Of a DNA stretch of 64,000 bases, positions 14,869-62,255 are shown piece by piece. Positions within the stretch are counted from its first letter, which is position 1, and each line of letters starts with the position of its first letter. The translations under genes were made by a program, and so were the position numbers. Source of the DNA: SAR86 cluster bacterium (lineage in GTDB: Bacteria > Pseudomonadota > Gammaproteobacteria > Magnimaribacterales > D2472); assembly GCA_023703615.1 (NCBI GenBank), contig CP097971.1:1-64000 (forward strand), in the 5' to 3' direction. The notes under the pieces are model-generated. The model was not told the DNA's origin, ran no database searches, and saw nothing but the letters and a program-made list of their open reading frames with translations.

Positions 14869-15676
14869 GAAATATAAGTTGGGGGTTATAGGATCACCGA
14901 TCGAACATTCCTTATCGCCTTTTATACAATCAAGATTTGCAAGACAAGAAAATATTTATATTGACTACAGACCTTTCAAGGTTGAACCAGATGATTTTGA
15001 ATATTTTGTAAAAGATTTTTTTGCAGATAGTTCATCAAAAGGACTAAATGTTACTTTGCCATTAAAATCATTAGCATATAATTTGAAAGGAACTCTTTCT
15101 AAAGAAGCTTCGCAAATACAAGCGGTAAATACTATTAACAAGAAAGACAGAAAAATTTATCTTGATTCAACAGATGGTATCGGTTTTGTTGAGGATTTGA
15201 ACAGAAAGAAGATTTTATTAGAAAATAAAAATGTGCTTATTATTGGTGCAGGTGCTGCAGTAGAAAGCATACTTTTTAATATTATCCAAAAAAAACCAAA
15301 AACTATATTTCTTATGAATAGAACAAAATCAAAGGCTGCTAAGCTCATAAAAAAATATGAGAAAAGCTTTGGCTTAAATATTTTTGACGATCATGAAAAT
15401 TTATTTGATGTAATTATAAATGGAAGTTCTGCTGGTTTGACTGGTGAATTTAAGCCACCTAAATTAAAAGTTAGTAATAAACCAAGTTTTTATGATCTAA
15501 ATTACTCATTAACATCAACACCATTTTGTCAGTGGGCAAAGGAAAAATCAGAATTTGTATTTGACGGAACAGGAATGCTTGTTAACCAAGCAGCGTACTC
15601 ATTTAAAATATGGTTTGGCATAATGCCTTCTATTGATAAAGTATTGAACGATATGAACAATCTAAAAAATGACTAA
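14861..15676 (+). CDS. aroE: shikimate dehydrogenase
   Basis: AroE reduces 3-dehydroshikimate to shikimate with NADPH in aromatic amino-acid synthesis. The N-terminal GSPIEHSLSPFIQ, the catalytic region NVTLPLKSLA (Lys of NVTLPLK), the NADPH loop IIGAGAAVESI and C-terminal GTGMLVNQAAYSF are all in place. The 271 residues match E. coli AroE (272). It overlaps hemF by eight bases and yheV by eight bases, so translation is probably coupled through the whole run. Confidence 0.96.
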   Translation: MTKKYKLGVIGSPIEHSLSPFIQSRFARQENIYIDYRPFKVEPDDFEYFVKDFFADSSSKGLNVTLPLKSLAYNLKGTLSKEASQIQAVNTINKKDRKIYLDSTDGIGFVEDLNRKKILLENKNVLIIGAGAAVESILFNIIQKKPKTIFLMNRTKSKAAKLIKKYEKSFGLNIFDDHENLFDVIINGSSAGLTGEFKPPKLKVSNKPSFYDLNYSLTSTPFCQWAKEKSEFVFDGTGMLVNQAAYSFKIWFGIMPSIDKVLNDMNNLKND

Positions 15677-15869
15677 ATTCATTCAATTCATTGCTGGAGC
15701 TATATGTCCATCATGTAAAGCCATGGATAGCATCGCAATTAATAGAGAAAATGATCAGATTTATTGTGTTAAGTGTGATTATAAAGAAGATCGCCCAAAA
15801 GAAAAAAATTCCAAACAAGCAAACATCAATGTTATTAATCTTGAAGATTACAAAAAAACTAAACGCTAG
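15669..15869 (+). CDS. yheV: YheV-family putative zinc-ribbon protein
   Basis: This 66-residue protein has two cysteine pairs, ICPSCKAMDS near residue 13 and YCVKCDY near residue 34, which form a probable zinc ribbon. The N-terminal FIAGAICPSC and the spacing match the gammaproteobacterial YheV family (DUF2387), whose function is unknown. The lysine-rich tail looks disordered. It overlaps aroE by eight bases at ATGACTAA and ends the purE-tsaC-hemF-aroE run. A second overlapping frame (from 15691) has no family character and is ignored. Confidence 0.82.
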   Translation: MTKFIQFIAGAICPSCKAMDSIAINRENDQIYCVKCDYKEDRPKEKNSKQANINVINLEDYKKTKR

Positions 15870-15922
15870 TAATATAATCGACAAAAAGATATTATAAGCA
15901 CCAAATTATTTAACAGAAAACT

Positions 15923-15951
15923 TTGGTTATTATATATAGATAGTTTATAAT
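15923..15951 (+). promoter_or_regulatory. probable promoter of the cytochrome oxidase operon
   Basis: TTGGTT at 15923-15928 and a perfect TATAAT at 15946-15951 are separated by 17 bases, the ideal sigma-70 spacing. The expected start of transcription is near 15958, about 40 bases before coxB. It sits in one of the few gaps over 100 bases (15870-15997). No other element is seen in this gap. Confidence 0.6.
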
Positions 15952-15997
15952 ACATTATCATTAAACTTTATTTTTATAGCACTTTATATTGAGAAAC

Positions 15998-59245: not shown

Positions 59246-61399
59246 TTAGAAATTATTAGCAACTGAAGACATCTCAAAGTCTAATTTTTCCTTTCTATCT
59301 TCCATCTGTGGTGCTTCACCTAGTTTTTTACCGTCTTTAGCAAGTTTTATCAATAAATCACTAGCTTTGTATGTATCATACCCAGTTTCTTTGTAATATT
59401 TATCAAGTTTTTCTATCACTTGTTGTAATCCCATTGCATTTGCGTGATGCATTGGCCCGCCTCTCCATATTGGGAATCCATAGCCATTTATGTATACAAC
59501 ATCTATATCTGATGCTCTTTGAGCGACTCCTTCAGATAAAATATCTGCCCCTTCATTTATTAAGGCTAAAATACATCTATCAACGATTTCTTCATCAGTT
59601 ATATCTTTTCTTTCGAAACCATTCTCTTCAGATATTCTTTTATAAACTTCTTCATTTTCAGGAGCAGGGCTTGGTGCTCGCGATCCCTCATTGTAATTGT
59701 AATAGCCCTTTGAACTTTTTTGACCAAATCTATCATTCTCACACAACTCATCTCCAATTTTTGCATGAAGTGGTGATTCTTTACCGCCAAGCTTTCTTGC
59801 TCTCCATCCTAAATCCAAACCAACTAAATCCATCATTCTAAATGGACCCATATTTAAACCAAAGTTCTCTAAAGCTTGATCTATTTGATGAGGAAGTGCA
59901 CCTTCTAATAAGAGCATATTTGCTTGCGCCGTATATTTAAATAGCATTCTATTTCCAATGAAACCTGGAGCGTTTAAGGATACTACTGCAGATTTTTTTA
60001 ACATTTTCCCAATCGACATTACTGTTGCTAAAGTTTCATTAGAGGTTTTATCACCTCGAACAACTTCTAATAGTCTCATAATGTTTGCAGGACTAAAAAA
60101 GTGAGTACCTACTACTAGCTCAGGTCTATTAGTTACTGATGCAATAGAATCAATATCTAAACCTGATGTATTACTTGCAAGTATTGCGCCAGGCTTAACT
60201 TGCTCGTCTAGAGACTTAAATATTTTTTCTTTAAGGTCTAGATTTTCATAAACAGCTTCAATAACAATGTCGCAATCTTTTAGATCAGAATAGTCTAAAC
60301 TTGAATCAACTAAACCAAAAACAGCATCTTTTTGATCACTTGTTAATCTTCCTCTTTTAACCATAAAATCATAATTTTTTTCTATTACTGAAATACCTCT
60401 TTTTAAATTATCTTCATCTTGATCGATTATGTGTACAGGTATGCCTGCATTTGCAAAACACATTGCAATACCACCACCCATTGTTCCCGATCCAATAATG
60501 CCTGCTTTTTTTATATCAATTAGTTTGGTATCTTTTGGTATATCCGATACTTTAGATGCAGACCTTTCACCAAAAAAGATATTTATCATTGCTTCTCTTT
60601 GAGGATGAAGTAGACATTCAATAAAATACTCTTGTTCTTTCTTAAGCCCCTCATCAAAATTATCACAATTTATAGCGGATTCAACACACTTTATTATTTG
60701 TCCAGGGGCAAATTGTCCCTTTCTAGTTTTTGCAACAAGTGATCTTGCTTCTGTTAAAACGTTATCATCGCCTCTAGAATCTATTATTTTATCGTTTAAA
60801 TGACGAACAAGAGGGTGCTCATTTGTATCTTTTGCTATTTTTTTTGCAAAATCTATAGATTCTTGGACAACATTTTCGGATAATGAATCCAAAATTCCCA
60901 TTGATAATGCCTTTTTAGCATTAATATGCCTACCCGTTAACATCATTTTTAAAGCTTCTTCTGGTCCAACAACTCTAGGCAGTCTTTGAGTACCACCACC
61001 ACCTGGTAAAAGCCCCAAATTTACTTCAGGAAGGCCTACTAAGGCTGCTGGAGAGCCAATTCTATAATTACAGCACAGTGCTGTTTCTAAACCTCCGCCA
61101 AGGGCAACACCATTAATTGCTGCAATAACAGGTTTTGAACAAAATTCTATTTTAGAAAATACTGTATGGAGATCCGTACCAATATCTTGTGCACCAAATT
61201 CAGATATATCAGCACCAGCAATAAAAGCCTTTCCTTGTCCTGTCAGAACAATACCTACAACATTATCATCATTCTCAGCTTTAATAATTCCATCATGTAA
61301 TCCTTTTCTGACACCCTCACTTAAGGGATTTACTGGTGGATTATCAATGGTTAAGATAGCTACATCATCATTTACTTCATATAAAACTGTGCCTTTCAA
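59246..61399 (-). CDS. bifunctional enoyl-CoA hydratase / 3-hydroxyacyl-CoA dehydrogenase
   Basis: Both steps of beta-oxidation are on one chain. The N-terminal crotonase fold has FIAGADISEFG near residue 58 (oxyanion and catalytic region) and PEVNLGLLPGGGGTQRLP near 123. The C-terminal part has the NAD loop IGSGTMGGGIAMCFANAG near 305 and two 3HCDH C domains. At 717 residues it resembles the single-chain FadB/FadJ and peroxisomal multifunctional types. No thiolase gene is adjacent, so it is not a fadBA operon. The start is TTG with a strong AGGAG upstream; a -10 TATAAT lies at 61430-61435 on the minus strand. Confidence 0.9.
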   Translation of the reverse strand: MKGTVLYEVNDDVAILTIDNPPVNPLSEGVRKGLHDGIIKAENDDNVVGIVLTGQGKAFIAGADISEFGAQDIGTDLHTVFSKIEFCSKPVIAAINGVALGGGLETALCCNYRIGSPAALVGLPEVNLGLLPGGGGTQRLPRVVGPEEALKMMLTGRHINAKKALSMGILDSLSENVVQESIDFAKKIAKDTNEHPLVRHLNDKIIDSRGDDNVLTEARSLVAKTRKGQFAPGQIIKCVESAINCDNFDEGLKKEQEYFIECLLHPQREAMINIFFGERSASKVSDIPKDTKLIDIKKAGIIGSGTMGGGIAMCFANAGIPVHIIDQDEDNLKRGISVIEKNYDFMVKRGRLTSDQKDAVFGLVDSSLDYSDLKDCDIVIEAVYENLDLKEKIFKSLDEQVKPGAILASNTSGLDIDSIASVTNRPELVVGTHFFSPANIMRLLEVVRGDKTSNETLATVMSIGKMLKKSAVVSLNAPGFIGNRMLFKYTAQANMLLLEGALPHQIDQALENFGLNMGPFRMMDLVGLDLGWRARKLGGKESPLHAKIGDELCENDRFGQKSSKGYYNYNEGSRAPSPAPENEEVYKRISEENGFERKDITDEEIVDRCILALINEGADILSEGVAQRASDIDVVYINGYGFPIWRGGPMHHANAMGLQQVIEKLDKYYKETGYDTYKASDLLIKLAKDGKKLGEAPQMEDRKEKLDFEMSSVANNF

Positions 61400-61508
61400 T
61401 TTATTCTCCTTTTTATCGCTAAGAGGGGCATTATACCTAAAAAAATATCAAAATTTTGCTGCAAATCCGTCTTTTTTAATAAAAATTACAATTAATTTAT
61501 CATTTCTA

Positions 61509-61536
61509 TTGATAATTAAATATAAATAATTATAAT
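61509..61536 (+). promoter_or_regulatory. sigma-70-like promoter of a candidate small RNA
   Basis: TTGATA at 61509-61514 and a perfect TATAAT at 61531-61536 are separated by 16 bases. The predicted start of transcription is close to 61541-61543, exactly at the base of the 9-bp stem that follows. It is one of the best -35/-10 pairs visible in the window. Confidence 0.65.
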
Positions 61537-61540
61537 AATG

Positions 61541-61615
61541 TTGTCAGCACTCCTCTCCCCCTATTATTTTGCTGACAAATCTGAAATTGTGGAGGGTTTT
61601 TTAACCCTCCTTTTT
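61541..61615 (+). ncRNA. candidate small regulatory RNA of about 75 nt
   Basis: A perfect 9-bp stem TTGTCAGCA (61541-61549) with TGCTGACAA (61570-61578) closes a 20-base pyrimidine-rich loop that contains CTCCTCTCCCCC. A twelve-base single-stranded linker leads to an intrinsic terminator. The loop is complementary to Shine-Dalgarno-like purine runs, as in CCUCC-loop sRNAs of other bacteria, but the sequence matches no family I recognise. There is no ORF of note. Alternatively the element is an attenuator in the leader of the glutathione peroxidase gene. Confidence 0.65.
61591..61615 (+). terminator. intrinsic terminator
   Basis: GGAGGGTT (61591-61598) pairs perfectly with AACCCTCC (61603-61610) around a TTTT loop, and five T residues follow directly. 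It is the strongest textbook terminator in the window. No protein gene ends upstream of it on this strand, which is the main argument for a small RNA. Confidence 0.85.
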
Positions 61616-61624
61616 AGGCATATT

Positions 61625-61711
61625 ATGAAACATAATTATAGAGACATTTTTGAAATATTATTTTTAACTTGTTTGTTTGTAACTTCTATCTCTGCAATTA
61701 CCCCTATATAG
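61625..61711 (+). CDS. possible 28-residue hydrophobic microprotein
   Basis: ATG at 61625 opens a 28-residue frame ending TAG at 61709-61711. The product has a charged N terminus and a hydrophobic core FEILFLTCLFVTSISA that looks like a membrane segment or a signal peptide with SISA before the end. A weak AGG stands six bases before the ATG. It lies just after the terminator and before the glutathione peroxidase gene, so it could be a leader peptide. Short AT-rich frames arise by chance, so confidence is low. Confidence 0.25.
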   Translation: MKHNYRDIFEILFLTCLFVTSISAITPI

Positions 61712-61733
61712 CATTTAATATATAATAGGTATC

Positions 61734-62255
61734 ATGAAATATATATATTTTTTATTTGTATTTTTTTCATCATTTTCGTATGCATGTTCTAGTCTATTGA
61801 ACACTGATATGAAAATATTGGATTCATCTCAATATGAAAATTTTTGTAAATACGAAGATAAAGTAATGCTTGTGGTAAATGTAGCAAGTCGATGTGGCTA
61901 TACTTATCAATATGAAGGCTTACAAAATTTGTATGACAAATATAAAGACAATGGTTTAGTAGTTGTAGGAATTCCATCCAGAGACTTCATGCAAGAATTT
62001 TCTGTTGAAAAAGATGTTGCAGAATTTTGTTCTACCGAATACGGAGTTGATTTTCCTATGTATTCAACTACAAAAGTTCGAGGAAAAAAAGCACATCCAT
62101 TTTATAAAAAATTATTTGCAGAATCTGGCGTAAGCCCAGGTTGGAATTTTTATAAATATTTAATATCGAGAGAGGGTAAAGTTATTAAATCATATAATTC
62201 GGGTGTGAAACCAGATTCTGAAGAACTATTAAATGATATAGAGAACCTTCTCTAG
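61734..62255 (+). CDS. glutathione peroxidase family protein, exported
   Basis: A thioredoxin-fold peroxidase with a signal peptide (about 1-18, ending SYAC; a lipoprotein is possible but the lipobox is imperfect). The peroxidatic Cys54 is in NVASRCGYT. The usual second motif with Gln reads GIPSRDFMQ here, so the tetrad Gln is not at its normal place. WNFYKYL carries Trp and Asn. The 173 residues match the family. With Cys as active site it may be thioredoxin-dependent. It abuts the convergent rpiA (one base apart). Confidence 0.85.
   Translation: MKYIYFLFVFFSSFSYACSSLLNTDMKILDSSQYENFCKYEDKVMLVVNVASRCGYTYQYEGLQNLYDKYKDNGLVVVGIPSRDFMQEFSVEKDVAEFCSTEYGVDFPMYSTTKVRGKKAHPFYKKLFAESGVSPGWNFYKYLISREGKVIKSYNSGVKPDSEELLNDIENLL

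Follow-up and report, generated by a model that had tools for sequence, protein, structure and literature searches.

A conserved structured RNA with a C-rich loop ahead of a probable membrane-peptide gene and gpx in SAR86 bacteria

Introduction

The closest described counterparts of the RNA presented here are sX13 of Xanthomonas and RepG (HPnc5490) of Helicobacter pylori. Loop 3 of sX13 and RepG have the motif UCCCCCU in common, and both RNAs repress mRNAs with G-rich motifs located near start codons or in leaders; sX13 acts independently of Hfq, and the 4G motifs in its targets lack conserved flanks (PMC3771888). The loop of RepG pairs with a G-repeat in the leader of tlpB mRNA (PMC8295292).

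The locus described below, from a SAR86 cluster bacterium, encodes a strongly structured RNA that shares with both systems an apical loop containing UCCCCCU (PMC3771888) and, as regards sX13, lies in a genome without detectable Hfq. It differs from sX13 in carrying a single C-rich loop within roughly 75 nt, as opposed to three in about 115 nt, and in having no Rfam match. RepG, in turn, belongs to an unrelated organism, and no target of the RepG type was identified for the SAR86 RNA. The RNA is new to Rfam as a sequence family, and its probable mechanistic kind, a C-rich-loop sRNA, is already known.

Our literature search on regulatory and small RNAs in SAR86 found no relevant description. SAR86 bacteria are among the most abundant of the surface ocean, are scarcely cultured and have streamlined genomes. 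In this regard, the RNA offers a testable case of Hfq-less RNA regulation in streamlined marine bacteria: since almost all genomes of two families contain it and no Hfq was detected in the one genome checked, such regulation can be tested from existing metatranscriptomes. Additionally, the locus reveals an unannotated membrane-peptide family.

Results and Discussion

Promoter, hairpin and terminator

The window analysed here comprises positions 1 to 64,000, forward strand, of contig CP097971.1 of a SAR86 cluster bacterium (genome G000). An earlier note on this DNA had proposed that its only large spacer holds a small RNA locus with a TTGATA-16-TATAAT promoter, a 9-bp stem and a terminator followed by T5, and had been unable to match it to 6S, SRP, tmRNA, RNase P or a known riboswitch class. 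A sequence scan recovered each of these elements in its place. The features of this locus, named copy A to distinguish it from a second copy (B) in the same genome, are as follows:

59246..61399, minus strand: divergent fadJ/fadB-like gene, 717 aa (Pfam and NCBIfam); conserved neighbour
61496..61530, plus strand: conserved extension of the promoter that overlaps the -35 box, TTTATCA..TATTGATA..TATAAAT; a probable operator (alignments)
61509..61536, plus strand: sigma-70-type promoter TTGATA-16-TATAAT (consensus scan, 11/12), kept in nearly all homologs; -35 TTGATA at 61509-61514, 16-nt spacer, -10 TATAAT at 61531-61536
61541..61578, plus strand: stem-loop 1, with arms TTGTCAGCA (61541-61549) and TGCTGACAA (61570-61578) around the 20-nt loop CTCCTCTCCCCCTATTATTT (fold, compensatory changes, alignments)
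61579..61590, plus strand: single-stranded linker, UCUGAAA here (alignments)
61591..61615, plus strand: intrinsic terminator GGAGGGTT-TTTT-AACCCTCC-TTTTT (scan, compensatory changes), with arms at 61591-61598 and 61603-61610 and T5 at 61611-61615; as a whole, GGAGGGTTTTTTAACCCTCC plus T5
61625..61711, plus strand: unannotated small ORF (smORF), 28 aa, MKHNYRDIFEILFLTCLFVTSISAITPI, with homologous peptides in relatives
61734..62255, plus strand: gpx, glutathione peroxidase family, 173 aa (Pfam GSHPx, E = 3.5e-27); conserved neighbour

No gap between ORFs of at least 80 aa in the window exceeds that at 61400-61733 (334 nt). The next largest spans 312 nt (15677-15988) and is mostly occupied by a 66-aa ORF, so that calling the former the only large spacer is roughly correct. 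This 66-aa ORF (15669-15869) has paired CxxC motifs (MTKFIQFIAGAICPSCKAMDSI..) and appears YheV-like by eye.

The promoter at 61509-61536 is the best of the region, in which promoter-like sites show no overall excess (8 observed vs 11.4 expected). Stem-loop 1, a 9-bp hairpin, starts at about the predicted transcription start. The fold of the 76-nt RNA reaches -24.6 kcal/mol, far beyond chance when compared with shuffled sequences (-10.0 +/- 2.4 kcal/mol; z = -6.1; 0/200).

Rfam 15, which covers 6S, SRP, tmRNA, RNase P, riboswitches and sRNAs, gave no match in the window at the gathering cut-off, and only a tRNA in the sister-family and copy-B loci; as the earlier note had suspected, it holds no family for this RNA (cmscan). 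The best sub-threshold scores corresponded to two multi-copy sRNAs, PrrF (RF00444; 24.2 bits, cut-off 90) and LhrC (RF00616; 20.2 bits, cut-off 110). Both lie far under the gathering scores, and the SAR86 RNA is a member of neither family.

Conservation and compensatory changes in the home family

BLASTN found the element and its promoter in most genomes of the same family. A covariance model made from 24 homologs detected the RNA in 97 of the 107 family genomes at E <= 0.01 (18/19 among the near-complete ones) and in 95 at E <= 0.001. Among the genomes without a match, at least two (G066 and G090) have an incomplete locus, because their gpx contig stops close to the smORF. The single match at E <= 0.001 among other members of the order (G151, family f3) was weak and was rejected as a terminator-like hairpin without the loop. 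No viral contig among those searched carries the RNA. Pattern matches in non-SAR86 genome contigs were judged from their overall pattern to be due to chance, because they are single exact matches scattered over unrelated phyla.

The earlier note had named loss of either stem in relatives with the same flanking genes as grounds for giving up its claim; both stems are kept there, and both show the compensatory changes that it had suggested looking for. Among 76 matches (57 distinct), two-sided changes occur at 11 of 17 pairs, namely 6/8 in stem 1 and 5/9 in the terminator. Paired variants can be read directly, such as GUCAGC/GCUGAC, UACCAAC/GUUGGUA, CAUCAAC/GUUGAUG and CUAGC/GCUAG. Furthermore, 93% of cells pair, as compared with 36-53% after the partners have been shifted by 1-3 columns, and the covariation score is 0.205 vs 0.112 +/- 0.007 in shuffles (0/500) and 0.03-0.05 in the shifted controls; the underlying alignment was fitted to the covariance model and hence leans towards the structure. 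A MAFFT alignment, which is unfitted but from which the structure itself was taken, gave 9 two-sided pairs (0/500 shuffles). The loop CUCYCCCC is nearly invariant, and CUCYCCCCYUAU is the least variable part of the alignments.

In the window, a frame is open from the ATG at 61538 across the hairpins into the smORF, and the interval could on that account be coding, as an N-terminal extension of the smORF with a leaderless start (57-aa ORF, 61538-61711). Of 47 distinct A loci, nevertheless, just 17 have this frame open; distances to the start of the smORF fall into all three classes modulo 3, and the changes track base pairing instead. The coding reading is refuted by the loss of the frame, and we give it practically no credence. 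We are highly confident that the interval encodes a conserved structured RNA and, from its sequence features, this element is very probably a small RNA.

The sister family

In the sister family (f4), the region upstream of gpx contains the promoter, the hairpin GUCAGUC-UCUCCUCUCCCCCAAU-GACUGAC and GGGGCUUCGGCCCC, followed by small ORFs. A second model comprising promoter and stem-loop (R2; 23 sequences, three of them from f4) matched in 11/11 f4 genomes tested, 8 of which lie outside the model, and in none of the 26 genomes tested from other families of the order (0/14 in f3, 0/12 in f2). At the f3 and f2 gpx loci listed, gpx lies close behind a ykuD-like gene, without the RNA element.

The f4 terminator differs in sequence: GGGGCUUCGGCCCC, which ends in a U-run in most copies, replaces GGAGGGTT/AACCCTCC. 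The predicted terminator hairpin itself is kept across the two families and its sequence is not; the comparison leaves the promoter region, stem 1 and the C-rich loop as the constant parts. At four f4 loci from several genomes (L265, L266, L272 and L274), an additional small ORF, 34-35 aa long (..YPLWGCAFFGCGYLIG..), is located between the RNA and the 28-aa smORF.

A conserved, probable membrane peptide and a stand-alone paralog

At the loci examined, copy A lies in the order fadJ (minus strand), RNA, smORF, gpx (plus strand) and rpiA (minus strand). The smORF starts ten bases past the T-run in the window, and copy A is found 10-30 nt upstream of it across loci. We identified 39 distinct homologous peptides, 25-33 aa long, in the equivalent position of related genomes. 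The sister family f4 also has a homolog, and E, L, F and P are invariant in the alignment that takes it in. Mean pN is 0.30 against a mean pS of 0.60, a comparison that is indicative only, since pS is near saturation. The product is probably a single-pass membrane peptide, and profile searches of Pfam, NCBIfam and PDB returned no relatives. The smORF represents an unannotated, conserved family of probable membrane peptides, 25-33 aa in length. As the sequence between terminator and ATG is too short for another promoter, smORF and gpx are probably expressed from the RNA promoter through terminator read-through.

The earlier note had overlooked this ORF as well as the second RNA copy of the genome. 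Its small RNA locus stands as far as the stems, their conservation and the lack of an Rfam family are concerned, and has to be amended in that the RNA is here also the upstream part of a smORF-gpx unit. SgrS/SgrT is a dual-function sRNA locus with a small ORF, and likewise joins a small-protein gene and a regulatory RNA in one unit; in SAR86, by contrast, the ORF lies past the terminator, outside the sRNA, and the second copy has no ORF. An sRNA with its terminator ahead of a micropeptide-gpx unit, together with a stand-alone paralog, is an uncommon arrangement.

That paralog, copy B (G000:C1:790880-790954), is also present in genera g2 and g5. It has the same promoter and loop as copy A and a partly different stem and terminator, and it lacks both the linker (consensus UCUGGAA in A copies) and the smORF. 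Its neighbour genes are other than those of copy A, and its hairpin stops just before the end of the convergent sbcB. In this context, copy B is a stand-alone RNA gene. One further genome (G125:C10; L134 1513-1588) holds a third RNA copy, with the loop CTCCTCTCCCTATTGGG, in a different gene context.

The arrangement of copy A raises the question of whether the RNA is mainly a cis-acting leader of smORF-gpx, that is, an attenuator whose terminator sets read-through and whose C-rich loop senses a protein, a metabolite or an RNA. The RNA precedes the smORF at that short distance wherever the smORF is readable, in two families and with unrelated terminators, an observation that fits a leader role too. 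Moreover, A copies often have an interrupted T-run (ATCTCTTT, AAGTCTTA), and the linker is restricted to A copies. Copy B, however, shares the promoter, the loop and a terminator and has no downstream gene to lead, so the RNA cannot be a leader only. In addition, the tails of A and B copies differ little (5.1 vs 5.7 T in 8), and pairing of the loop with the 5' arm of the terminator is possible but no better than for shuffled loops (10 examples), no antiterminator being found. We therefore regard a mainly cis-acting role as possible, though unlikely. The stand-alone paralog and the f4 copies with their unrelated terminator sequence support a real, terminated small transcript.

The C-rich loop and its candidate targets

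The nearly invariant loop CUCUCCCCCUAU includes the UCCCCCU motif, so that a 4C/5C motif is displayed apically on a covarying stem of 7-9 bp, as in RNAs of the sX13 type. Our search for Hfq (PF17209) detected none in the genome of the window, which is 95% complete; the same search was positive in 5/14 control genomes, including E. coli. Any activity of the RNA in this genome would thus be Hfq-free.

Start codons with 9-11 nt of complementarity to the loop exist in several genomes. Candidate sites are UAAUAGGGGAG before a GcvT-domain gene in this genome, whose start lies at about 1079270 of G000, AUAGGGGGAG before a TonB-receptor gene in G006 and, in both G007 and G015, AAUAGGGGGAG before the gene for a 71-aa protein. 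No conserved mRNA target with long complementarity was found; the sites fall at different genes in different genera, which keeps the proposed targeting conditional, and part of the G-rich sites near starts would be expected anyway, given that ribosome binding sites are themselves rich in G.

A C-rich loop might also belong to an RNA that acts as a sponge or decoy for a protein, either of the Csr/Rsm type or another RNA-binding protein, rather than by base pairing. A copies do carry GGA at two places, the linker (UCUGGAA) and the terminator arm (GGAGGG). These positions are nonetheless linker and terminator stem, not the several GGA-bearing hairpin loops typical of Csr/Rsm sponges; f4 lacks the GGAG arm, B copies lack the linker GGA, and conservation is highest in the C-rich loop. 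Protein titration accordingly appears improbable to us.

We consider it slightly better than an even bet that the RNA is a trans-acting, Hfq-free sRNA that targets G-rich motifs and also forms the 5' part of a smORF-gpx read-through transcript; for action in trans through the loop, taken by itself, the analysis leaves the balance close to level. Under this trans-acting reading, the locus would most likely be transcribed into a terminated RNA of about 75 nt, whose stem 1 would expose the loop CUCYCCCCYUAU. The loop would then most likely pair in trans, without Hfq, with sequences close to start codons that are G-rich or resemble a Shine-Dalgarno site, and this pairing would lower translation of the mRNAs concerned, as with sX13 and RepG. 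Read-through of the terminator from the same promoter would, most likely as well, yield the membrane peptide and gpx.

Both outputs might moreover be coupled, one promoter giving either the terminated trans-acting sRNA or the mRNA for peptide and peroxidase, with the RNA itself setting the ratio: termination would change when the C-rich loop is occupied by a protein or by G-rich mRNAs. If so, the operon would report the abundance of sRNA targets and the paralog would supply the sRNA alone. We view such coupling as a speculative extension with little chance of being correct.

A promoter sequence shared with other genes

Copies A and B, like the sister family, keep the extended promoter region, and the stretch TTTATAAAnnCTATTGATAATTAATTATAAATA..TATAAT is conserved far beyond a plain promoter. 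We searched 41 family genomes with the pattern TTGATAWNNNNWTATAARY, for which a backward control gave 0-2 matches per genome. Matches correspond to the RNA copies, a pseudoazurin-type gene and a membrane-protein gene, the others being scattered and chance-like.

The pseudoazurin-type gene (Copper-bind, E = 1.1e-4) is preceded by the pattern in seven genomes, namely the present one (L309 524-600; G000:C1:448424) and six relatives. In genus g8, the putative operator lies before a gene whose product is a membrane protein of 60-71 aa (MITNVQEATAEETREWLENDYF.., a family without assignment; L319, L320 and L321). sRNA A, sRNA B, pseudoazurin and the 60-71-aa membrane protein would therefore make up a small set of units with the same promoter sequence, which points to their common regulation. 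In genus g5, the matches (L317, L318 and L324) precede a TTG-start gene that, from its position, probably encodes the same 60-71-aa membrane protein.
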